DNA from: Lachnospiraceae bacterium
GTDB lineage: Bacteria > Bacillota > Clostridia > Lachnospirales > Lachnospiraceae
Direction: 5' to 3'
NCBI GenBank assembly: GCA_017476665.1
Contig: JAFUZJ010000032.1
Coordinates: 1-63,379, forward strand
Length of the DNA: 63,379 nucleotides
Position 1 is the first letter of the stretch. Each line of letters begins with the position of its first letter. A program made the translations under genes and the position numbers. The notes beneath the pieces are model-generated. The model was not told the DNA's origin, made no database searches, and saw only the letters and a program-made list of their open reading frames with translations. Below are positions 4,300 to 37,476 of the stretch, piece after piece.

Positions 4300-5931
4300 C
4301 TACGGTCTCTCGTACAGCACCAGATCCGCATCCCGGTCCAACAGTTTCCACCCGGCGGCGGCACAGGCGGCATCCACCTCTGCGCCCGTCTGGGCAGCCA
4401 GATAACGGCTCCTCGTCTCACTCAGATGTTCCAGGATAAAATCCTTCTGACAGCAACTGATCCCATACCCTTCCGGCAGCGCATACAGCAGCTGCCACTT
4501 CATTGTCTGCCCCTCTGCGCTCTGCTCATTAAACACCCATATGACAACATTGTCATAATTCGGCACATTTTCCCGGTGCATTTCCAGCGCAGCATCAAAC
4601 CTTCCCTTCCAGTCCTCCACCTGCGTCTGCCGCTTGGCAGTCACAAAAGGCACCTGATAATCATAGGGATCCACCGCCCGATAGGAATACAGATATGCAA
4701 AACACGCTCCCATCACCACTGCCTTCTTAAAAAACCGTGTGTCCATCAGGCTCACCACAAACACCCCCACCGCCATAAAGGTCAATAGATGCTTGCTTCC
4801 CTCTGTCAGCTTATACATCAAAAGCAGCGCAAACAACATGCCGATAAAGGAAAACGCCAGATGCGCCTCTGCGATCAGCTGTGACTCCGTCGCTGCATTC
4901 TCCTGCGCTGCACTCTGTGCCTCATTTTCCCCGCGGTTTCTGCGCAGTTTTCTGTAATCCGCCACACTCTGCCACAACAGCACCGCCATTGTCACCAGAT
5001 ATCCGGCAAAAAACGCCCCCGACGCCAATCCCGTGCGGATTCCCTGCACCGTATGTGCCCGGAAATCTTTTCCCTTCCAATATAATGTCCCGAAGAAATT
5101 GTGCACGCCCGCGCCAAATCCGTCCGTAAAAAACATCGTGATCCAATCCGTGAAAAACAGCGGATGAAAATACTCCGCCCCGAAAAAGTGCTTGATCATC
5201 GCATAGCCTACCAGCACACATCCGGTCACCGCGCAGGAGCCCAATGCTCCGATCCACAGTTTTCCCTCTCTTTTCGCCCGGCGCACCCAGTAAAAATCCG
5301 GCAGCAGCAAAAAGAGCAGCATATAAGGCCGCATCAGCGTAAGCAGCCCGGAACCCGCAAACATCCCCGCAAGCTTCCAGCCCTTCTCCTCCCTGCCATG
5401 GCTCACTGCCAGCCCGTAAAACAGGATGAGGTGACTGATACAAATAATCTCCGGCATGCCGGACAACATATACCGCGCAAACGGCGTATAAAGACAAAAC
5501 AGCAGCGTCAGAATCCCCATCTGTTTCCAGGTGGGCTTCACCAGCAATACAAACAAAAACATGGCCGCCGTCATCAATACAATATTGCAGATGACCGGCG
5601 CCATAAAATTCCAGCCAAACAAAAAGCCCCACACGATCCAAGGCAGCACCAACACCGGGCTCCATGCCGCAAAGGATAACACCAGACCGTGACTTTCATT
5701 GAATCCGTAATATCCCTGCGGGAACCCGTACGCCACAATACTTTCCACCTGCTTATAGTAAAACAGCTCATCATTCCACTCGGACGCCGGCAAATATACA
5801 TCTCCGATGCCATATCCCTGCACGGCGCAGGTCACAACACAGCACAAAAAAGGCAAAAGCGCCATCAGCAGCGCTTTGCCCCATACCACATATCTTTTGT
5901 CCTGTCTGAACCAGTCCAACAGTCTATTCAT
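4300..5931 (-). CDS. Polytopic membrane protein, probable GT-C-type glycosyltransferase
   Basis: 543 residues with about ten to twelve hydrophobic segments and a soluble C-terminal ~110 residues. The first outside loop carries an acidic patch (SEWNDELFYY), the position where GT-C enzymes using polyprenyl-phosphate sugars keep a catalytic Asp/Glu. It is the last gene of the leftward glycan operon and overlaps the GtrB-like gene by 8 bases. This matches the common pairing of a polyprenyl-phosphate sugar synthase with the membrane enzyme that uses its product. The start ATG at 5931 follows CAGGAGG. No specific family name is certain; an acceptor role in cell-wall or exopolysaccharide decoration is inferred. 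Confidence 0.65.
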   Translation of the reverse strand: MNRLLDWFRQDKRYVVWGKALLMALLPFLCCVVTCAVQGYGIGDVYLPASEWNDELFYYKQVESIVAYGFPQGYYGFNESHGLVLSFAAWSPVLVLPWIVWGFLFGWNFMAPVICNIVLMTAAMFLFVLLVKPTWKQMGILTLLFCLYTPFARYMLSGMPEIICISHLILFYGLAVSHGREEKGWKLAGMFAGSGLLTLMRPYMLLFLLLPDFYWVRRAKREGKLWIGALGSCAVTGCVLVGYAMIKHFFGAEYFHPLFFTDWITMFFTDGFGAGVHNFFGTLYWKGKDFRAHTVQGIRTGLASGAFFAGYLVTMAVLLWQSVADYRKLRRNRGENEAQSAAQENAATESQLIAEAHLAFSFIGMLFALLLMYKLTEGSKHLLTFMAVGVFVVSLMDTRFFKKAVVMGACFAYLYSYRAVDPYDYQVPFVTAKRQTQVEDWKGRFDAALEMHRENVPNYDNVVIWVFNEQSAEGQTMKWQLLYALPEGYGISCCQKDFILEHLSETRSRYLAAQTGAEVDAACAAAGWKLLDRDADLVLYERP

Positions 5932-6868
5932 GCAATGCCTCCTGGCAATTGATCCGCTCTCTGATCACATACTGCGGAGAATTATTCATGCTGATATAAA
6001 TCCTGCCCACATATTCTCCGATCAGGCCCAGCATGATCATGATCATACCGCCGAAGAACACCAGCGCCGCCATCAACGCACTGAATCCCATAGGAACCGC
6101 CGGATTCAGGAAACGCTTCACGATCGTATAGATTCCATACAAAAATCCCGCGCACGCACTGGCAACCCCAATGGTCGTAGCAATCCGCAGCGGCTTCACC
6201 GAAAACGCGGTAAAACCGTTAAACCACAGCCCCAGCAGTTTCTTAAGCGTGTAGCCCGAGCTGCCTTCTTCCCTGTCCCTGTGCTGCACCACCACATTCG
6301 CGATATTCTTGGTCGCCCGCAGCACAAGCCCGATCACATAGGGATAAGAATTCTCATAGCGGATCATATCCTCCACCACAAACCGTTTCACCGCAAAATA
6401 GCTGGAGACATAGAGCGCCTTCGGCTTCTCCAGCATCACCCGCAGCATCAGTTCATTGACCCTGCTGCCCCAGTTGCGGAAACCGGAGTGATGCTTGTGC
6501 TCATACTTTGCATAGACGGCGTCAAATCCTTCCTCCAACTTCCCCAACAGCTTATCCACCTCGTCCGCCGGCGTCTGCCCGTCATCGTCCAGACACACTA
6601 CATAATCGCCGGTTGTCTGCCGCAGCCCCGCCATCAGCGCCGCATGCTGTCCGAAATTCCTGGCAAACCCGATCCCCCGGATATTTGCATGGGCTTCACA
6701 CAGTCTGCGGATCACTTCAAACGTTCCGTCCGGCGAGCAATCATTCACCAGAATGATCTCATGCTCATACTTATGTAATTTCTCCATGGTTTCATTGATC
6801 TCTGTCACCACATGTTCCAATGTCTTCTCCGACCGGTAACAGGGGATCACAAAACTGACCTTCTTCAT
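5924..6868 (-). CDS. GT2 polyprenyl-phosphate glycosyltransferase, GtrB/ArnC-like
   Basis: 314 residues. The N-terminal GT2 domain starts with VSFVIPCYRSEKTL and has the nucleotide/metal site CLDDDGQ. The C-terminal ~90 residues carry two membrane helices (near 230-255 and 265-290). This layout is typical of enzymes that load a nucleotide-activated sugar onto undecaprenyl phosphate on the cytoplasmic face (GtrB, ArnC, DPM1-like). Upstream, 5 bases away, is the GNAT acetyltransferase, and upstream of that a DegT aminotransferase. The sugar may therefore be an N-acylated amino sugar; that link is inference. The ribosome site reads AAAGGTAAG. Confidence 0.8.
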   Translation of the reverse strand: MKKVSFVIPCYRSEKTLEHVVTEINETMEKLHKYEHEIILVNDCSPDGTFEVIRRLCEAHANIRGIGFARNFGQHAALMAGLRQTTGDYVVCLDDDGQTPADEVDKLLGKLEEGFDAVYAKYEHKHHSGFRNWGSRVNELMLRVMLEKPKALYVSSYFAVKRFVVEDMIRYENSYPYVIGLVLRATKNIANVVVQHRDREEGSSGYTLKKLLGLWFNGFTAFSVKPLRIATTIGVASACAGFLYGIYTIVKRFLNPAVPMGFSALMAALVFFGGMIMIMLGLIGEYVGRIYISMNNSPQYVIRERINCQEALHE

Positions 6869-28571: not shown

Positions 28572-29687
28572 TCAGTTAAAGATCCAATTCAAATAAGGCA
28601 GCAGCCTGATATCCGTCGCGTACATCCCCTTCAGCAGCACCGCAAAATAACATGCAAAGGCTCCGACCACACCTGCGCAGCATACCCTTCTCAACCAATT
28701 GACATCCATGTCACATATTAATGCCGGCAGCAGAAAAATCTGGGATACGATCAGATAATATCCCACCCTGGACACCTCCGGGATAAAGCTTCCACAGGGA
28801 TACACCACCAACGCCATCCCGTTCAGAAAGAAATAAAATCGGTTTGCCACGTTTTGCCGGCTTTCTCCCACCAGACTCTTTTTATAACAGATTCCGCACA
28901 GCGCCAGCGTACCCACGCATTTCAACACATTAACCCAGGAAATGTGCCCTGTGTCAAAAGCCGAATCCCGATAGAACGGATAAAACGTAAACGCGATCTC
29001 CCGGTAAAAATCCGGAAAACAAAACAGACTGGCAACCCCCAGGACACCCACCGCCAGGTGCCATTTCTTCAATTTCACCTTCGCCAGAACATACGCCGCC
29101 AGATACGCCGGGATCACCAGCAAGATTGACTTATGAAACACCGCGCCAAACAAGATCCAAAGCACAAACTTTCCGAACTCTTCCCGCAGTACATACTGCA
29201 TGGCATACAGCGCAATGGCTAACGCCAGATAATACCGCACCGTATTTAAGCTGTTGAAATAATAGCCTCCGGTCATCAGCAGAAACAATGAAAAAGCATA
29301 ATGCACCGCCTGCCCGTGCAGCGCCCTCACAAAAAACCACACCGTGAGCAGGGAAAACAGCGCAAAGATCGGCAGATAATTGTCGTATCCGAACAGCTGC
29401 TGCATCCACTTGACGATCAGATTAAATCCGAATTCCGAGGAGACATGCCGCTCCTGGGCGATCAGGCGGAAATTAAAGCGATACACCCAATAGTCATTGC
29501 CCACGGCAATCCTGCATGCTGACACTCCTGTCAGAAGGCAAAAAACAGCAAACTCGGCCACACTGCTCCGGGCGTACCCCCTGCTGCCGGGAATCACTGT
29601 CTTCCACTGCACAAAGCTCTGCACAAAAAACGCCAGCAAAACCGTTACAATTGTAAGCATAATATACACCAACGCACTGCTCTCCAT
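28572..29687 (-). CDS. EpsG-family membrane protein, probable repeat-unit polymerase
   Basis: 371 residues, nearly all hydrophobic, about ten membrane segments. The block CRIAVGNDYWVYRFNFRLIAQE...SEFGFNLIVKWMQQLFGYDN, followed by YYFNSLNTVRYYLALAIALYAMQYV and FHKSILLVIPAYL, is the EpsG (Wzy-like) signature. The family joins lipid-linked repeat units into polymer on the outer side of the membrane. The operon also has an O-antigen ligase-like gene, so there are two candidates for the polymerase. The start follows GGAGTAGG. The downstream stop-to-start gap is 21 bases. Confidence 0.85.
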   Translation of the reverse strand: MESSALVYIMLTIVTVLLAFFVQSFVQWKTVIPGSRGYARSSVAEFAVFCLLTGVSACRIAVGNDYWVYRFNFRLIAQERHVSSEFGFNLIVKWMQQLFGYDNYLPIFALFSLLTVWFFVRALHGQAVHYAFSLFLLMTGGYYFNSLNTVRYYLALAIALYAMQYVLREEFGKFVLWILFGAVFHKSILLVIPAYLAAYVLAKVKLKKWHLAVGVLGVASLFCFPDFYREIAFTFYPFYRDSAFDTGHISWVNVLKCVGTLALCGICYKKSLVGESRQNVANRFYFFLNGMALVVYPCGSFIPEVSRVGYYLIVSQIFLLPALICDMDVNWLRRVCCAGVVGAFACYFAVLLKGMYATDIRLLPYLNWIFN

Positions 29688-29694
29688 GCTTTTC

Positions 29695-30492
29695 CTACTC
29701 CGTCAATCCTTCCTTCTTCAGCCGCTTCCCTTTGCGCACGCCGTCACACAGCCAGCGAAAAGCCTTGCCCGGATCCGCTTCAGAGCGAATGTTCCTCTTC
29801 GTGACATAACGCAATCCAAACGGCACCGCCATCACACCATACAGGTAATGATATAAGACACCTCTGTCATAAAAAAACTTTTTATCATACCCCTTAAACC
29901 AGCTGGACTCCCCGGCCACCTCTCTGCCGATCAGCACAGGCGCCGTATAAACAAGGCAGCCCCAATCCATCAGTTCCTTCAGAAACAGATTGTCCTCGCC
30001 GTTACTGAATCTTGCGCCCCCGCCGAACAGAAGGGAAAACTTCACCCCCGACTGCTCCAGCACCTTCCTGCGAATGGCAAAGCTCACCGCGCCGTACCTG
30101 CCGCAATTATACCAGCGCACCCGCTTCCTGTCCGTGATAAAATATGTCTTCCTGGACTCCTCCACCTGAATATTAAACAGGATCATATCGGCCTCCGGAT
30201 TCGCCGCAAATTCCCGCTCAATGGCCTGCGCGTACCCGGGCTCATACACAATATCCTCATCAGAAAAAAGGCAGATGTCACCATCCGCCCTCTCTATCGC
30301 TGCATTCCGGCTTTTCCCGATCCCACGCTCCGGAAAGGAATAGAATCGGATCCTTCCGCCCTTGTACTCCATCTCCTCATAACCCTGCCTGTCGCACTGG
30401 TTAATGATCACCGCGTCGGATTCCAGCCCCATCTGCTCTACAAGCGTCTCCATATTCTGATTCATCACCGAAACCAGAACTTCTACACTCAT
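29695..30492 (-). CDS. GT2 glycosyltransferase
   Basis: 265 residues from the ATG at 30492, which follows CGGAGG at 7 bases and overlaps the upstream stop by 4 bases (ATGA); the longer reading from 30549 lies inside the Wzz-like gene. GT-A features are VEVLVSVMNQNMETL, FPERGIGKSRNAAIERADGDICLFSDEDIVY (S-D-E as metal site) and the later GEDNLFLKELMDWGC acceptor-side block. The C-terminus is basic with no membrane helix. It likely adds one residue of the repeat unit. Donor and linkage are unknown. Confidence 0.8.
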   Translation of the reverse strand: MSVEVLVSVMNQNMETLVEQMGLESDAVIINQCDRQGYEEMEYKGGRIRFYSFPERGIGKSRNAAIERADGDICLFSDEDIVYEPGYAQAIEREFAANPEADMILFNIQVEESRKTYFITDRKRVRWYNCGRYGAVSFAIRRKVLEQSGVKFSLLFGGGARFSNGEDNLFLKELMDWGCLVYTAPVLIGREVAGESSWFKGYDKKFFYDRGVLYHYLYGVMAVPFGLRYVTKRNIRSEADPGKAFRWLCDGVRKGKRLKKEGLTE

Positions 30493-31523
30493 CTCCGTCC
30501 TCCGGGCAATAAATAATAGCTCCTGATCAGCTTTTCGTCCGCCTCCCACAAGAGTACTGCCATCACGGCAATCTCCTGCGTCCGCAGGAACTCCAGCAGA
30601 TACTCGAGGGGCTTTCCCGCATGCAGTCCCGCAGGTACTGCCAGCAAGACGCCGTCCGCCTGCCGCAGCAACTCCAGATCCCGCTTTTCACAGATAGGGG
30701 TCGCTGCCGTCTTCCATTCCAGCTCCCGCAGTTCGTCCGCCTCGTCTCCGGCGTTCTGCAGTTTTTCCTGCAAAGCCTTTGTCACATTCTGTAGATCTGT
30801 TTTCTCCTCTGTCGAACAGACCGCCAGACATTTCTTACCTTTGCATAAATGCCCTGCATTCTGCACGAATTCCGCGCTCTGCAGCGTACCCAGCACAGGA
30901 AGTCCGTATCTTCTCCGCAAGGTTGCCGGCAGCCAGATGCTGTCCGCCCCGATCTCCCGCAACAAAAAAATCACCACCACAAAGAAACAGGAGAGCACCG
31001 CGCTCAAGATCAACGCCCGAAGCGGTCTCACATCCGGATAGACCAACGTCACATCCGACACATCGATCACCTGTGCCGCAGCAAGCTCCGGCGTGATCTC
31101 CACAAACGCCCCCGTCACCACATTCTGTACCGCTTGGGAGATCGGTGCTACCTGATCCTGTTCCAGACAGCTGACCGTAAAAGAAGGGACATGGATATCC
31201 GATGCCACCCGCGCCGACAACTGATCCGCATTCACAACGGCTCCCCCGTCGCTCAACAGAAGCGCCCGGAATTCATCGGAATCCACATACGTATTCCATG
31301 TCATATCATTGATATAGTAATCCCCCGATTGAACCGGCGGGTTCGTATACTCTAATTTGCATGTGATCGTCTGCTCATAGCGGGGTTTCTCCCCCAAAAG
31401 CACATTTTTCACATAATATCCGCCGCCGAACAAAATTGTGCCCAACAGCGAAAATAATAGAATCCACCTCAGACTGCGGAACAGACGCAACACCGTCAGC
31501 CGCAGGTCAAAAGGCTCTGCCAT
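30489..31523 (-). CDS. Wzz-like chain-length protein with degenerate BY-kinase-like domain
   Basis: 344 residues from the ATG at 31523; the codons MWEGNY before it are the ribosome site GGGAAGG. Two membrane helices (near 20-45 and 170-195) enclose an outer domain of ~120 residues, as in Wzz/CapA proteins. After the second helix, GLPVLGTL...KCLAVCSTEEKTDLQNV...ADGVLLAVPAG...EIAVMAVLLWEADE follows the bacterial tyrosine kinase fold, but the Walker A GxxGxGKT is gone and no Tyr cluster is present. So it probably sets chain length with the polymerase, and the kinase part may be only structural or regulatory. Expected kinase and phosphatase genes are absent here. Confidence 0.75.
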   Translation of the reverse strand: MAEPFDLRLTVLRLFRSLRWILLFSLLGTILFGGGYYVKNVLLGEKPRYEQTITCKLEYTNPPVQSGDYYINDMTWNTYVDSDEFRALLLSDGGAVVNADQLSARVASDIHVPSFTVSCLEQDQVAPISQAVQNVVTGAFVEITPELAAAQVIDVSDVTLVYPDVRPLRALILSAVLSCFFVVVIFLLREIGADSIWLPATLRRRYGLPVLGTLQSAEFVQNAGHLCKGKKCLAVCSTEEKTDLQNVTKALQEKLQNAGDEADELRELEWKTAATPICEKRDLELLRQADGVLLAVPAGLHAGKPLEYLLEFLRTQEIAVMAVLLWEADEKLIRSYYLLPGGRR

Positions 31524-31556
31524 ATAATTACCTTCCCACATCCGTGTCTTCTCCTG

Positions 31557-33131
31557 CTATGCCTTAGATGCCTTGCGTGCCTTCTGCGCCCCCGTTTTTT
31601 GTCTCTCCTGCGCTTCCAGAATATCTGTCAGATCCGGCATCGCCAGCGTATCATCGGAAATCGTCTTTTTTGGAATCTGTCCGTTTGCGGATGTCCTGCC
31701 TCTTTCCCGCTTAAACGCAGTCACCTGCTCACTCTCCACACCCTCCGTGCTGTCAGGCCAGAACAGAACCTTCAGTGTCAGGAGCATCAGCTTCAGATCC
31801 AGCCACACCGAATAGTGTTCGATATAATACAGATCCAGCTTCAGCTTATCATAAGGCGAAGTGTTATACTTTCCGTAAACCTGTGCAAACCCGGCAAGAC
31901 CGGCCTTCACCTTGGTACGGTAGATAAACTCCGGCATCACTTCCACATACTGCTTGATGATCTCCGGTCTCTCCGGCCTGGGACCGATAAAGGACATATC
32001 CCCGCGCAGAATATTCACCAGCTGCGGCAGCTCATCGATCCTGCATTTGCGGATAAATCTCCCGATCGGTGTGATCCTGTCGTCGTTTTTCTGCGCCAGT
32101 CTCGCCACGCCATCCTTCTCCGCATCCGTGCGCATACTGCGGAACTTCATGATCCGGAACTCCCGCTGATCCCTGGTACACCGGATCTGCTTGTACAGCA
32201 CGGGACCGCCGTCATAGGCTTTGATCGCGATAGCCGTGAGCAGCATGATCGGAGAGGTCAGCACCAGAAGGATCACGGAACAGATCAGATCGATGCTGCG
32301 CTTGATAAACCGCTGTTCCATACTCAGACTGAATTCTCTGGTCAATAGCATGGGCGAATCAAAGATATGCAGTTCTTCCGCACCGCCCAGAATAACGTCC
32401 GTGATCTTGGGCATCACATAGACGCGAATGGATTTCCCATAACAGAACTTTAAGAGCCTGTTGCGCTCCGCCGTGGACACATCCCACACAACCACCGCCG
32501 TACATTCTCCGGTCTCGTAGCTTCTTGTGATCTCCTTGCAGATACGGTCCACGCCTTCTCTGACACATAAGGTTTTCTGGATCACATATTTATCATGTCT
32601 GCTCTCAAATTTATTGTAGATATCTGCAATGGAGCGCTCCCCATGCACCAATAACAGCTTCCTCGGTGGGAAGATATTCCGGTATAACCGGTTGGCTATA
32701 CTGGTGTATACGATCACCGTGATGATCTGTTCCACCAGCATCATCAGGATCACATCCGGCGCAAACGGCGCATGTGCCATGATAGACAGCTCCACGTAGA
32801 TAAACATCAACGCCAATATCGTGGAAAACACCTGCGAAAAAATCAATTCCACCGTCTTCAGATACCCCAGCCGCATACCGCCGTACATGGCAGTCAGAAA
32901 GATCAATAACAGTCCGTAAAATGCAATCTCCACGATATGTCCCTTGTATCCGAAGTTTCTCAGCGATTCCACCACGTCAAACTGGAAATGTGTCAGCCAA
33001 TGATAAGCAAATATTCCTATCTCCAATGCCACACACAGGATCGTCATCCCCAGATTGATCAGACGTTTAAAGGATTCCATCCGTCTCAATTTATTTTGTG
33101 TTGCAATATATTCATTGGTATGTGTATTCAA
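31557..33131 (-). CDS. Undecaprenyl-phosphate sugar phosphotransferase (WbaP/EpsE type)
   Basis: 524 residues starting at TTG 33131, with GGAGGGAT five bases ahead. About four to five N-terminal membrane helices and a nucleotide-binding-like central domain (LLLVHGERSIADIYNKFESRHDK) precede the C-terminal catalytic domain (from about 270): KRSIDLICSVILLVLTSPIM, PVLYKQIRCTRDQREFRIMKFRSM, DELPQLVNILRGDMSFIGPRPERPE and GLAGFAQVYGKY. The family places the first sugar-1-phosphate on undecaprenyl phosphate and so starts exopolysaccharide repeat synthesis. The last ~55 residues are a polar tail not normally seen. It is the first gene of the leftward operon. Confidence 0.9.
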   Translation of the reverse strand: MNTHTNEYIATQNKLRRMESFKRLINLGMTILCVALEIGIFAYHWLTHFQFDVVESLRNFGYKGHIVEIAFYGLLLIFLTAMYGGMRLGYLKTVELIFSQVFSTILALMFIYVELSIMAHAPFAPDVILMMLVEQIITVIVYTSIANRLYRNIFPPRKLLLVHGERSIADIYNKFESRHDKYVIQKTLCVREGVDRICKEITRSYETGECTAVVVWDVSTAERNRLLKFCYGKSIRVYVMPKITDVILGGAEELHIFDSPMLLTREFSLSMEQRFIKRSIDLICSVILLVLTSPIMLLTAIAIKAYDGGPVLYKQIRCTRDQREFRIMKFRSMRTDAEKDGVARLAQKNDDRITPIGRFIRKCRIDELPQLVNILRGDMSFIGPRPERPEIIKQYVEVMPEFIYRTKVKAGLAGFAQVYGKYNTSPYDKLKLDLYYIEHYSVWLDLKLMLLTLKVLFWPDSTEGVESEQVTAFKRERGRTSANGQIPKKTISDDTLAMPDLTDILEAQERQKTGAQKARKASKA

Positions 33132-33265: not shown

Positions 33266-34032
33266 TCATATCCGGCGGGACACCGCCCGGACTGCCCAAA
33301 AGCAAAAATTCCAGACACTCTCCGGCAGACTTAAGCCCTCCACCTTGCGGTAAAGGTTCCAGATCCGGCGGATCGCCTCCAGTTTGTTGGAGGAAAGCGT
33401 CCTGCCTGCCCTCCGGTATCTGACCAGATTTTCATCCAGGCCGTATGCCATATACCCGTTTTTTAAAATTTTCCACCAGAGTGCGGTATCTTCGCTCTTC
33501 ACTTTGGGCATTTCCAGCAGTTCTTTTGCGATCACCGCTGTGTCAAAAAGTACCGTGGATGTAAAATGGTGGTATTTTTCAGCGCCTGATGATAATTCAT
33601 GCGCTCCGGCACACGCACGATCTTCCCCGTTCCCTTTCCATTTTCATCCGCAAACTCATATCCCGTGAACACAAACCCTGCCCGGTTTCGCTCCGCAAAC
33701 AAAAGCTCCTTTTCCAGCTTCTCCTTCTCCCACAGATCATCCGCATCCAAATAGGCGATATACCGCCCCTTCGCCTGCAGCAGTCCCTGGTTGCGGGCAT
33801 TGGCCGCGCCGCCGTTTTCGGGAAGGCAGATCAGCCGGATCCTCTCATCCCGGATCCGCTCCAGATAGGTCTCCAACAGCTCCCTGGTACCGTCCGTGCT
33901 GCCGTCCTCCACCAGGAGCAGTTCCCAATCCTGCCAGGTCTGTGTCAGCACGGAATCCACCGTATCCCTGATATAATCCTTTACATTGTAAACCGGTATG
34001 ATCACACTGACCGTTTTCTCATTATCCGACAT
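33266..34032 (-). pseudogene. GT2 glycosyltransferase broken by one-base frameshift
   Basis: The first piece (33532-34032, 166 residues) has SVIIPVYNVKDYI, LLLVEDGSTDGT, NGGAANARN and the metal site AYLDADDLW. The second (33266-33535) continues the same fold with MPKVKSEDTALWWKILKNGYMAYGL. The frame shifts at the A4 run 33563-33566 (T4 on the coding strand). Adding one T joins the frames as KNTTIFTSTVLFDTAVIAKELLEM, giving about 255 residues. The enzyme is otherwise undamaged, so this is a very recent lesion, a phase-variable run, or a sequencing error. It ends the operon that begins at 37403. Confidence 0.85.
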
Positions 34033-34036
34033 ACAC

Positions 34037-34912
34037 TCACACTTTCATCAACAGATAATATTGCTCTAATTCCACAACCTGCGCCCAATCCACGCTCTCC
34101 GGGTTAAAACCGACTATCCCCTTCGGGAGTAGCACACAGTTCGCCCCCATGGAAAATGCCTTCTCCACATTGCTCTGCAGTTTCTTCCCGTTTCCGTCAG
34201 CAGTTTCCTCCATCCACTCATACAGCTGATGTAGCTCCTCCGGATAGCCATCATAGGTATAGGCATTGAGCGCTTCGTCCCACATATTTCTGCCATACAA
34301 AAGCTTTGGGATCGCTCCTGCCATCCCGGCCGTTTCCCCCTGCAGGCGTGCATACTCCATAATTTCCCGGGGCGCCCAGAGACAGATCTCCGCATTCGTG
34401 CGAAACATCATATTTTCCCGCACCTCCCGCAGCACATCCTCCGCCTGCGTCCGGGCTTCCTCGCTGACCGGAGCATATCCGTTTCCGTCTGTGTCGGAAA
34501 CCGCCCACTCTATTCCCAGACCTCCGCATATGGAAAGCACCAAAATACAGGATACCGTCAGCACAAGATTAAACAAAAAGCCCTTAATTCCCGCATCCCT
34601 GCGCCAATGCTCCTGCAGGATCACGACACCGCCGAATGCGATCAGCGCCGTCACAGGAACAATGCTCCAGATAAACGGATAATCATAAAAAGCGGTCTGA
34701 TATTTCATGAGTATCGCCGCCGTTCCGGGAAACAGACATGCACCGGCCGCCACCGCACCGTAATAGATCAGTTTTCTGCGGCCGCCAAACATCGCCCTTC
34801 CCCGCTCAGAAAAAAGAAGGTACAACAACACCGCGATCAAAACCGCAGGCAGCTTTCCTTCCGTGATAAAATTACGCCATCCCTGCCAGGCAGGCTGCAT
34901 CCACGCAGTCAT
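34037..34912 (-). CDS. Membrane protein of unknown function
   Basis: 291 residues. Four hydrophobic segments (about 22-40, 48-68, 78-98 and 110-130) are followed by a soluble ~150-residue part, probably outside, rich in acidic and aromatic residues (ICLWAPREIMEYARLQGE, YTYDGYPEELHQLYEWMEE). The start ATG follows AAAGGAGGAG. It sits 3 bases after the DUF6077-like gene and 4 bases before the broken GT2, so the three are one transcript. It looks like the detached C-terminal part of a larger polytopic protein, with the preceding gene as N-terminal part, but there is no frame evidence of a split. No family is recognised. Confidence 0.6.
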   Translation of the reverse strand: MTAWMQPAWQGWRNFITEGKLPAVLIAVLLYLLFSERGRAMFGGRRKLIYYGAVAAGACLFPGTAAILMKYQTAFYDYPFIWSIVPVTALIAFGGVVILQEHWRRDAGIKGFLFNLVLTVSCILVLSICGGLGIEWAVSDTDGNGYAPVSEEARTQAEDVLREVRENMMFRTNAEICLWAPREIMEYARLQGETAGMAGAIPKLLYGRNMWDEALNAYTYDGYPEELHQLYEWMEETADGNGKKLQSNVEKAFSMGANCVLLPKGIVGFNPESVDWAQVVELEQYYLLMKV

Positions 34913-34915
34913 TGT

Positions 34916-35896
34916 CTACTCCTCCTTTCTCACGACGCGCAAAGCGCCTCTTTTTCTCCGCAGCAGCAGGCACAAAGCCCCCATGCCCGCCGTCACCAGC
35001 ACGCACGTCCCCATGCCGTAAAAAGTCCAGACGATACACGCCTCCGCCGCCACACACAACAGCGTTCTTTTCCATTTGCCCCGAAGCGTCAGCCCTAACG
35101 TATAGGGCACCAGAATGCCGTTTCGTATGGTGATCCCCCGATATCCGCAATACAAAAGCCCGTATCCATCCATTCCAAACATATAATTTCCCACGAAAAA
35201 CACAGCAGCCACCACCGCCATGAACAGCAGCCGCTTTTCCCTGTCCTTCCCTGTAGGAAAAAGAACCCGGGCAATCGTCCAATACGCCAGATAGGTCAGA
35301 AACAGCACCACCACCGGCATCCATCGGGTCAAAAGCACATAGCACAGACCGCCGCCTCTTTGCACATCCCCGGCTGCAATGCCTGCCAGCCGGCACAAGA
35401 TCGCGTAAAACGTCGGCAGCCCCAGAATCTTTATCCTTTTGGGCACGCCGGTCGTATAGGCCTGTCCTGTCAACGGATTGACCGCATAAACCTGCCCCGT
35501 CTCCAAAATACTCTGCACGGTTTCAATCGTCTGGTCGCCTTTGAGCACAACCGCATCCCCAAACGCAACCGTGATCACCTGAAACAGCACGATCAGCCCA
35601 AAAACAAGGGCGATCCCCGCCAGAGTGGGGGTGATATCCTTCCCTGCGAGCTCCCTGCCGGATCCTTCCTTCTCCTGACGTCCCGGCTCTCTGCCTCGCA
35701 CATTCTGCCGGAACAGGAGCACCAGACTTGCCGCAAAGCAGATCACAAACTCCGCCGCAAAGCAGATGACCGCATCAGAAAAAGGCCGATGACCAAACAC
35801 CATCAACAGATGTCCGGTCTCGGCCATTCCCAATGTCAGAAGAAAGCCTGTGATTATGTTGTCTGTCAGCGAACCGATTCTTAAAGTCAGTTTCAT
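34916..35896 (-). CDS. Polytopic membrane protein, DUF6077-like
   Basis: 326 residues, about eight to nine hydrophobic segments. An outer loop contains GDAVVLKGDQTIETVQS...YAVNPLTGQAYTTGVPKRIKILGLPTFYAILCRLAG, which fits the DUF6077 pattern of Firmicute surface-glycan membrane proteins as I remember it. It ends only ~30 residues after the last helix. The ribosome site GAGGAG lies 8 bases before the ATG, and the Spo0A-domain gene ends 35 bases upstream with no terminator between. Together with the next gene (34037-34912) it could form one functional unit. A glycan-related role is inferred from context only. Confidence 0.6.
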   Translation of the reverse strand: MKLTLRIGSLTDNIITGFLLTLGMAETGHLLMVFGHRPFSDAVICFAAEFVICFAASLVLLFRQNVRGREPGRQEKEGSGRELAGKDITPTLAGIALVFGLIVLFQVITVAFGDAVVLKGDQTIETVQSILETGQVYAVNPLTGQAYTTGVPKRIKILGLPTFYAILCRLAGIAAGDVQRGGGLCYVLLTRWMPVVVLFLTYLAYWTIARVLFPTGKDREKRLLFMAVVAAVFFVGNYMFGMDGYGLLYCGYRGITIRNGILVPYTLGLTLRGKWKRTLLCVAAEACIVWTFYGMGTCVLVTAGMGALCLLLRRKRGALRVVRKEE

Positions 35897-35931: not shown

Positions 35932-36309
35932 TTACATTGCCTTAAAATCAAGACGCACCTTATCTGCAATCCGCGCAATATACTCGCTGTTGGTCGGTCT
36001 CACATTACCTGTCCGCGCAGAGTATCCGAACATCGCCTCAAAAGTCTCCGCATTGCCCCTGTCCCAGGATACCTCTATCGCATTGCGGATCGCGCGCTCC
36101 ACCTTCTGCGACGAAGTCTTAAACCGCTTTGCGATCACCGGATACAGAAGCTTCGTAATACTGCTGACCGCCTCCATATCCCTCCCTGAGATCATGATCG
36201 CATCCCTCAGATAATGATAGCCTTTCAAGTGCGCCGGTACACCGATATCGAGCATGATACCCGTAATATACCTTTCCAGCTCGACATCCTTTACCGTTGT
36301 AATGTCCAT
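35932..36309 (-). CDS. Stand-alone Spo0A C-terminal DNA-binding domain protein
   Basis: 125 residues. From about residue 10 to the end it follows the Spo0A effector domain: IGVPAHLKGYHYLRDAI, SSITKLLYPVIAKRF, SSQKVERAIRNAIEVSW (recognition helix; Spo0A has SRVERAIRHAIEVAW) and PTNSEYIARIADKVRL. The receiver domain with its phospho-Asp is absent. The start has a textbook AAAAGGAGG site at 9 bases, and no receiver fragment lies upstream, so the gene is complete in this form and not a truncation. Without a receiver it should bind 0A-box-like DNA regardless of phosphorelay state. It is placed between a GtrB-like GT2 and glycan membrane proteins, suggesting it controls them or competes with Spo0A. 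Confidence 0.9.
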   Translation of the reverse strand: MDITTVKDVELERYITGIMLDIGVPAHLKGYHYLRDAIMISGRDMEAVSSITKLLYPVIAKRFKTSSQKVERAIRNAIEVSWDRGNAETFEAMFGYSARTGNVRPTNSEYIARIADKVRLDFKAM

Positions 36310-36473
36310 GACAGAATCCTCCTTTTATTTTTGTCAGATAGTGCCTGTTTTTGTTCCTGCCTGGAATTATTTTATCATAGGTGTCGAGCCACAAAAAAGT
36401 CCATTTTATCAAAGAATTTCGTCAAAAAGGTACCTAAAAGTAGCCATTCTGACAAAATATTGTCAAACTTTCC

Positions 36474-37403
36474 TTAAATTTCCTCTTTTACCAGGTAAAT
36501 GGGACGATTTTTTACCTCCAGATAGGTTCTGGCAAGATACTGCCCCACTATCCCGGTACAGAAAAAGTTGATCCCGCTGGTTAACAGGATGATACACACC
36601 ATCGACGGCCACCCGGAAACCGGATCACCGAAGATCAGCTTCCGCACAATGATAAAGATGATCATCAAAAAGGCAACCAGGCACATGACCACGCCCATGA
36701 CGGATGAGATCATTAACGGCGCCGTGGAAAAGGCGATGATACCGTCAAACGAATACATGAGCAGTTTCCAGAAACTCCATTTGGTCTCGCCTCTGGCCCG
36801 CTCCACATTCTCATATTCCAGCCATTTGGTACGAAATCCGACCCAGCCGAAAATCCCCTTTGTAAAGCGGTTATACTCCCGCATGGAAAGAATGGCATCC
36901 ACCATCTGTCTGGTCATCAGCCGATAGTCTCTGGCGCCGTCCATCATCTCTGTCTTGGAGATCTTCTTCATCAGACGATAAAATCGTCTCGCAAAAAAAC
37001 TGCGGATCGGCGGTTCTCCCTTTCTGCTGACCCGTCTGGTGGCCACGGAATCGTATCCTTCTTTGATCCCGGCAAACATTTCCGGCAGAAGCGACGGCGG
37101 ATCCTGCAGATCCACGTCCATGATCACCACATAATCTCCCCTTGCCTTCTCCAATCCGGCGAACATGGCCGCCTCTTTCCCGAAATTACGCGAAAAAGAC
37201 ACCAGATGCACACGCTCGTCCTCCGCGATCAGTTTTTTCACTTCCGTTACCGTCCCATCCCCGGAGCCGTCATCTATATAAAGCAGTTCTACTTCAATTT
37301 CATTCTGTCGAAAAAAGGAGTCATTTTTCATAAGCTCCTGATAAAACAGAGCCACGCTGTCCTCCTCATTATAGCAGGGCACGATCACACTTAACAGACT
37401 CAT
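36474..37403 (-). CDS. GT2 polyprenyl-phosphate glycosyltransferase, GtrB/YkcC-like
   Basis: 309 residues from the ATG at 37403, 4 bases behind GGAGG; the earlier start at 37433 covers the ribosome site. N-terminal motifs are LSVIVPCYNEEDSV, LLYIDDGSGDGT and VIMDVDLQDPPSLLPEM. ARDYRLMTRQMVDAI and KWSFWKLLMYSFDGI are conserved in this group. Two C-terminal membrane helices lie at about 225-255 and 265-290. The family loads a sugar, often glucose, onto undecaprenyl phosphate for later transfer by a membrane GT-C enzyme. It is the third such enzyme in this window, and the first gene of the operon with the Spo0A-domain protein. Confidence 0.85.
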   Translation of the reverse strand: MSLLSVIVPCYNEEDSVALFYQELMKNDSFFRQNEIEVELLYIDDGSGDGTVTEVKKLIAEDERVHLVSFSRNFGKEAAMFAGLEKARGDYVVIMDVDLQDPPSLLPEMFAGIKEGYDSVATRRVSRKGEPPIRSFFARRFYRLMKKISKTEMMDGARDYRLMTRQMVDAILSMREYNRFTKGIFGWVGFRTKWLEYENVERARGETKWSFWKLLMYSFDGIIAFSTAPLMISSVMGVVMCLVAFLMIIFIIVRKLIFGDPVSGWPSMVCIILLTSGINFFCTGIVGQYLARTYLEVKNRPIYLVKEEI

Positions 37404-37476
37404 ATTTCCTCCCATGATCCAATCTATTTTCAAGTATACTATCCATTTGAAAATTGCGCAAGACTAATATATTTTA

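Follow-up and report, generated by a model that had tools for sequence, protein, structure and literature searches.

A stand-alone Spo0A DNA-binding domain in a surface-polysaccharide locus of Lachnospiraceae, accompanied by a second Spo0A without a receiver

In passages of two papers (PMC3533761, PMC6136694), phosphorylation of Spo0A is the switch by which bacilli and clostridia alike are said to start sporulation. The window analyzed here, a 63,379-nucleotide stretch of a Lachnospiraceae genome, encodes among glycan genes a small protein made of the Spo0A effector domain. What could such a protein do there, and how is sporulation decided in a lineage that has core sporulation genes and Spo0A boxes but a receiver-less Spo0A? 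A preliminary description of this DNA had proposed a regulator tying surface glycan to the sporulation decision or, alternatively, a competitor of Spo0A.

The stand-alone effector domain and its glycan locus

The gene, hereafter S, and its ribosome-binding site are located as follows.

35932..36309 (-): S, predicted stand-alone Spo0A_C DNA-binding protein, 125 aa (PF08769, AlphaFold2 model, 1LQ1)
36318..36323 (-): Shine-Dalgarno sequence AGGAGG of S, 8 nt before the ATG (sequence)

The open reading frame is real and starts with ATG, and the preliminary description of it as a stand-alone gene with its own ribosome site was correct. The Spo0A_C family (PF08769) matched residues 15-117 over positions 1-103 of the 104-position profile with 129.9-130.1 bits (curated cut-off, 25); it is the only Pfam domain found, and the protein begins at the effector domain. 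The AlphaFold2 model, built with 17 aligned relatives, had a mean pLDDT of 90.0 and a pTM of 0.84, and its top Foldseek match was the DNA-bound Spo0A effector domain, 1LQ1 (rmsd 1.0 Å over 111 columns, 55% identity). In phmmer searches with S, the structures 1fc3 and 1lq1 were matched with E-values of 5.3e-39 and 1.3e-38. By score, full-length domain, and fold, S is a member of the Spo0A_C family. It is not a Spo0A response regulator as defined by TIGR02875, since a receiver with the phospho-acceptor aspartate is missing, the score of 154.7 is below the equivalog cut-off of 200 (as is the 196.5 of the longer Spo0A copy described below), and the neighborhood is a glycan cluster instead of the spoIVB locus. 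In line with the preliminary description, a Spo0A-type receiver was not found in the window, where the best match of the Spo0A receiver profile in six frames had E = 0.71.

The recognition helix of S is altered throughout its clade. The VERAIR core is kept and the flanking residues are changed (S-R to Q-K, H to N, and A to S in the consensus of 96 S sequences), for which reason S may prefer DNA other than 0A boxes. Purifying selection is strong, with a median dN/dS of 0.017 over the 55 of 3,003 pairs (78 genes) that had 0.2 < pS < 0.6. The region corresponding to the sigma-A contact (F236) looks kept.

All genes of the surrounding cluster lie on the same strand as S:

36474..37433 (-): GtrB-like GT2 glycosyltransferase upstream of S (PF00535, 106.6 bits; 71/76 loci)
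34916..35896 (-): DUF6077 protein, probably membrane, downstream of S (PF19554, 94.8 bits; 66/72 loci)
34037..34912 (-): conserved protein without a Pfam family (w32), downstream in 60/65 loci
33266..34032 (-): GT2 glycosyltransferase gene in two open reading frames, 33532-34032 and 33266-33535 (PF00535 on the longer piece)
31557..33131 (-): bacterial sugar transferase, Bac_transf (PF02397, 217.2 bits; 58/59 loci)
30489..31541 (-): conserved protein without a Pfam family (w28; 53/58 loci), for which a chain-length (Wzz-like) role is only a guess
29695..30549 (-): GT2 glycosyltransferase (w27; PF00535, 39.3 bits; 54/57 loci)
28572..29687 (-): EpsG-family protein (PF14897, 140.1 bits; 43/48 loci)

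The loci counted are the best 80 of 436 relatives found by S motifs and, for each gene, only those with enough sequence. The preliminary description had placed S in a glycan operon with no terminator toward its downstream neighbor and had made its reading hinge on the gene and its neighbors recurring in related genomes. The setting agrees, with a GT2 gene upstream and DUF6077, GT2, Bac_transf, and EpsG genes downstream, and a scan of the window found no terminator-like site in the 35-bp gap after S. The recurrence was confirmed too: 37 of 41 genus genomes have the receiver-less gene, whose dN/dS is given above, the GT2 gene precedes S in 71 of 76 loci, and the sugar transferase follows in 58 of 59. 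S shows the conserved co-directional linkage to polysaccharide genes, in the window unbroken by a terminator, that is expected of a polysaccharide-operon regulator. The median gap between the upstream GT2 gene and S is 134 nt by alignment ends. In the assembly of the window's genome, the GT2 gene at 33266-34032 (-) is split into two open reading frames.

Loci of other genera were compared as well (30 loci, L183-L212). A Bac_transf homologue of 50%-59% identity was present near S in 20 of them and was not seen in the other 10, some of which are short (L185, L190, L191, L192, L198, L201, L206, L207, L209, and L210); the GT2 gene often follows S rather than preceding it, and in L186 the strand of the glycan cluster is reversed. 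In genome G196 (L332), GT2, Bac_transf, and EpsG homologues directly follow a diverged S (46% identity). In genome G102, which has a canonical Spo0A, a diverged short Spo0A_C gene was observed next to homologues of the sugar transferase (38%) and of a GT2 gene (L333, 6049-7660).

The second Spo0A copy and the distribution of both genes

The genome of the window (G000; 3.64 Mb, 72 contigs, 97.3% complete) gave two matches to Spo0A_C, and a full-length Spo0A was not found in this search. Besides S, the genome contains a copy at 61583-61894 of contig C37 that belongs to a 176-residue protein also without a receiver, hereafter the long form. The preliminary description had allowed that S might prove to be the only remnant of a missing spo0A; the full-length gene is indeed absent, but S is not its only remnant. 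The competitor role, which presumes a phosphorylatable Spo0A, was rejected in that form because the window's genome was found to have none. A split gene with the receiver encoded next door was likewise rejected for the long form of this genome, where the upstream gene encodes a different protein on the other strand.

Long forms are about 171-186 aa in length. Residues 1 to about 32 match the start of the Spo0A receiver (hhalign probability 96.1%, E = 3.7e-9; 52 unique proteins), after which the rest of the receiver, including the phospho-aspartate, is gone, and a variable linker leads to Spo0A_C. Since the N-terminal remnant matches the receiver start and the rest is missing, we conclude that spo0A itself lost its receiver by an internal deletion. 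In the acid pocket, the first Asp is replaced by Lys in most long forms, and Asp-Asp is retained in L085, L086, and L220. The recognition helix is canonical, with no change in the consensus of 52 long forms. In a Spo0A_C tree of 101 rows and 115 columns, supported by SH-aLRT only and with many forks unresolved, the long forms made up one clade (SH-aLRT 99) and S another (100) on a branch of 0.94. In G315, G268, G318, and G037, and thus in no fewer than four genomes, the long form directly adjoins spoIVB by coordinates; the window's genome is not among them. The AlphaFold2 model of the long form, with a mean pLDDT of 72.9 and low confidence in the N-terminal remnant, was not used as evidence.

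Several further observations concern the long form and other Spo0A paralogues. In L173 (7254-11124) and L176 (7053-10852), the long form lies just upstream of genes that we named by eye as glycogen-synthase-like (glgA-like) and SpoVB-like flippase genes. The long-form match of G037 (C88, 34639-34950) contains one stop codon, as does the SpoIIE match of this genome, which reflects either real decay or sequence error. A further Spo0A paralogue is present in G003, G235, and G107 (L334, frame 5692-6423; L338, frame 856-1338; L339, minus strand), and that of G003 and G107 passes from a match to receiver residues 1-33 straight to Spo0A_C.

In the genus (Acetatifactor group, Lachnospiraceae; 41 genomes), the long form was counted in 38 genomes and a short S-type copy in 37 by family match and frame length; the absence of the receiver was read directly only where long-form loci had been fetched, and the remaining long forms were called from frames of 181-211 aa. 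Genomes G403 (59% complete), G421 (63%, with a 31-position fragment), G431 (99%), and G434 (94%) gave no S-type match, and the last two have the long form. A phosphorylatable full-length Spo0A was not found among the matches of these 41 genomes except in G415 (530 contigs), where a single 273-aa canonical Spo0A lies on a 3.3-kb contig and short forms are also present. In a sample of 397 genomes of the family, at least 33 had S-type matches, and among the matches listed 32 of these 33 are accompanied by a second match whose frame, at 179-227 aa, leaves no room for a complete receiver; the exception, G064 (61% complete), gave one match only, of S type. Both genes occur in Acetatifactor muris DSM 23669 (L131). 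An artefact of draft assembly is unlikely because G402 and G381, of one contig each, carry both S and the long form.

A clean absence of receiver-Spo0A_C fusions across the clade does not hold. G087 (L335 and L336) and G100 (L337) encode two and one diverged response regulators, respectively, in which a receiver is joined to a weak Spo0A_C-like domain, and the long form is present in both genomes too. One genome of the genus, G428, has two S genes, each on a contig of its own (L341 and L342). Nor are short Spo0A_C copies in themselves confined to this clade: G085, G299, G310, and G065 gave 5 to 11 Spo0A_C matches each, mostly short and diverged. Homologues of the window's other open reading frames were absent from 15 regions around the short copies of G085, G299, and G310.

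Promoters and sporulation genes

The predicted promoter and leader of S contain the following elements:

36332..36338 (-): TCTGACA, interpreted as a decayed version of the leader 0A-type box, which reads CTCGACA in many relatives (sequence comparison)
36369..36377 (-): TGATAAAAT, extended -10 of the promoter predicted for S (sequence)
36382..36388 (-): CTCGACA, 0A-type box immediately preceding the extended -10; as TGTCGAG it differs from TGTCGAA by one base (composite element)
36418..36424 (-): TGACGAA, 0A box that fits the consensus TGNCGAA and immediately precedes another TGATAAAAT at 36403-36411 (sequence)

In the 150 nt upstream of S, TGTCGA or TCGACA was found in 49 of 95 unique genes, compared to a mean of 6.0 and a maximum of 11 in dinucleotide shuffles, which overstate the significance here and below because related species are not independent, so that placement is the stronger point. 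A box abutting the extended -10 (TCGACA-N1-5-ATGNTA) was present in 30 of 95 promoters (shuffles, 0). TCGACA lay no more than 45 nt from the start in 36 (shuffles, 0.8), and the two features were combined in 25 (shuffles, 0). The locus DNA, 2.12 Mb in which some places are represented twice, contained 40 copies of the composite, and all but one of these (39) precede an S start by 72-97 nt. Starts were assigned by a Shine-Dalgarno rule and some S starts may be misplaced. The element was found in 27 of 66 Acetatifactor-type loci versus 1 of 24 in other genera.

The Shine-Dalgarno rule misplaced about 24 long-form starts, and the receiver match and the long-form counts that follow use corrected ones. 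TGTCGAA precedes 11 of 21 canonical spo0A genes of the same family (0.3 in mononucleotide shuffles) and 7 of 51 long forms (1.1). A different element, TGCGA, lies about 39 bp upstream of the -10 in 35 of 52 long-form promoters, with similar spacing in 29 of 96 S promoters, and a related pattern lies within 600 nt of 6 of 22 canonical spo0A genes (all three are raw counts with no shuffle baseline). The candidacy of TGCGA as a private site of S is weakened by its presence before some canonical spo0A genes and before the long forms of two genomes without an S match (L069 of G434 and L082 of G431). It seems to be a spo0A promoter element passed on by descent, an indication that S originated with a promoter of this kind.

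Sporulation genes are retained in the long-form clade. Of 42 genomes, 41 had SpoIVA and 41 had SpoIVB over the cut-off; among 14 control genomes, SpoIVA matched only B. subtilis and SpoIVB passed the cut-off only there. SpoIIGA was found in all 22 long-form genomes searched, below the cut-off as in all 8 canonical relatives, and its only control match was B. subtilis. SpoIIAA was also found in 22 of 22, below the cut-off, in a family that matches non-sporulating controls as well. Spo0E was found in none of the 22 long-form genomes versus 3 of the 8 canonical ones, one of the 3 being below the cut-off. The SpoIIE match, present in 41 of 42 genomes, was below the cut-off and covered the C-terminal part only. 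In the long-form clade (C2, 4441-5607 of the window's genome, and relatives), it begins at about position 377-511 of the 764-position model and reaches the model's end, the frames being about 386-495 aa long, and the membrane part seems to be missing or unrecognizable. In canonical relatives, the match begins at 205-314 or covers nearly the whole model, with the exception of G008 (465-760).

Within 200 nt upstream of spoIIGA, TGTCGA or TCGACA was found in 14 of 22 clade genomes (shuffles, 1.4) and 2 of 8 canonical relatives (0.25). A TTGAC/-10 pair was recognized in 20 of these 30 promoters, always with a spacing of 21, and 11 of the 20 (9 clade, 2 canonical) have boxes 32-33 or 43 nt upstream of TTGAC, with one extra box at 15. 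The long spacing resembles that of B. subtilis spoIIG. The window's genome has the TTGAC/-10 pair before spoIIGA (L250), and a 0A box was not found in this promoter. Before spoIIAA, TGTCGA occurred in 1 of 22 clade genomes and 0 of 8 canonical ones.

A possible circuit and its relation to known systems

We tentatively read S as a phosphorylation-independent regulator that forms a feedback loop with a receiver-less Spo0A within a surface-polysaccharide operon, a proposal that we place somewhat short of probable. S would bind 0A-type DNA as a free effector domain without phosphorylation and, by its position, would control the operon in which it lies. The long form would have lost its receiver by one ancestral internal deletion and, its recognition helix being unchanged, may still act at spoIIG-type promoters. 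S, the long form, or both could bind the 0A-type boxes upstream of the -10 and in the leader of the S promoter, and box occupancy would limit the expression of S and its operon through negative feedback. How much protein is present and in which order it binds, instead of aspartate phosphorylation, would determine activity, and glycan output would thereby be coupled to entry into sporulation, provided that spores are formed by these organisms. According to parts of PMC3485338, the Spo0A DNA-binding domain binds TGTCGAA sites in vitro when isolated, and binding depends on the G and C of this sequence; these mobility-shift assays are in line with the suggestion of the preliminary description that 0A sites can be bound by a free domain. 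In a fitted model of the B. subtilis spo0A promoter, as given in parts of PMC12090719, 0A boxes are mostly repressive and one overlaps a -10; by analogy, the S boxes at the -10 and in the leader suggest negative feedback by the long form, S, or both.

The circuit is favored by the effector fold of S, purifying selection, the conserved operon position, the receiver remnant, the clade support and spoIVB adjacency of the long form, the boxes at the S and spoIIGA promoters, the Spo0E counts (0/22 versus 3/8), and the published domain binding and repressive-box model. Against it stand the spoIIGA promoter of the window's genome without a 0A box, an S-promoter element that is clear only in Acetatifactor-type loci and reads TGTCGAG rather than TGTCGAA in the window, the changed helix of S, the long form without an S match in G431 and G434, the 10 of 30 loci in other genera where no sugar transferase was seen, a prediction by the tool SpoMAG of no sporulation, and the near lack of boxes at spoIIAA. 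The fullest version, with two receiver-less Spo0As, one ancestral deletion, one protein tied to glycan, and mutual 0A-box feedback that replaces kinase input and sets a choice between coat and spore, is possible but rather doubtful. The preliminary interpretation is thus borne out in part: the receiver-less gene, its neighbors, the selection, and the 0A-type boxes of its promoter speak for it, and the competitor as written does not survive.

Other readings divide the same evidence differently. The helix changes, seen in the consensus of 96 S proteins and in none of 52 long forms, and the long branch of S (0.94) would also fit a new DNA specificity, in which the long form would control the S promoter through 0A boxes and S would control another regulon through another site; TGCGA, the sole conserved non-0A element found, is no dedicated S site, and we regard this reading as rather unlikely. 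Unlikely, too, is that S is an antagonist whose presence on 0A boxes brings no activation and sets a higher sporulation threshold for the receiver-less Spo0A, the glycan operon being a mere host transcript. The helix, with its core kept and its flanks changed, would suit such a role, as would the company of the long form in 32 of 33 genomes among the matches listed (the exception being the 61% complete G064), but glycan neighbors are kept in 20 of 30 loci even in other genera, more than a host transcript would need, and the presumed sigma-A contact region looks kept in S.

Decay after the loss of sporulation would make S and the long form leftovers that serve vegetative polysaccharide control, S that of surface glycan, with the long form next to a glycogen-synthase-like gene. 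This would fit a long form that has no receiver and precedes glgA-like and SpoVB-like genes, a SpoIIE reduced to its C-terminal match, the box-free spoIIGA promoter of the window's genome, and, in parts of PMC12536801, the call of the machine-learning tool SpoMAG, whose set contains 24 Lachnospirales MAGs, Acetatifactor among them, every one of which is predicted not to sporulate. Retention of SpoIVA and SpoIVB over the cut-off in 41 of 42 genomes each, of SpoIIGA in 22 of 22, and of spoIIGA boxes in 14 of 22 makes decay very unlikely in our judgment.

Under the preferred circuit, the lineage would be a natural system for testing an amount-controlled Spo0A, and the tie of S to surface polysaccharide would offer a testable link between coat and spore fate in gut commensals. 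Surveys that score spo0A as present or absent, as parts of PMC8340488 do, or that seek response regulators with Spo0A_C would overlook these genomes or interpret them wrongly. A published description of a Spo0A gene without a receiver was not found by title and abstract in a literature coverage that includes few subscription papers and no preprints, and the passages available from PMC6136694, PMC8340488, PMC11536998, PMC7924749, and PMC3533761 do not mention one.

Among known systems, Spo0A itself (TIGR02875) shares with S a C-terminal domain of about 50%-60% identity and 0A-type boxes in its own promoter; unlike Spo0A, S lacks the receiver and phospho-aspartate and lies in a glycan operon instead of the spoIVB locus. 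Constitutively active Spo0A variants of the Sad67 type are likewise active without phosphorylation, but they were selected or engineered, whereas S is a lineage-wide gene. The short Spo0A_C copies of the Lachnospiraceae genomes G085, G299, and G310 are short frames with Spo0A_C, as is S; they are 28%-38% identical to S where tblastn aligned them and occur several per genome, and each of these genomes has a Spo0A frame of at least 270 aa. The Spo0A DNA-binding domain of B. subtilis or C. difficile, a laboratory construct that binds TGTCGAA in vitro according to parts of PMC3485338, is the same receiver-less domain; that construct was cut by the experimenter, whereas S is encoded by a conserved gene under a promoter of its own and differs in its recognition helix.
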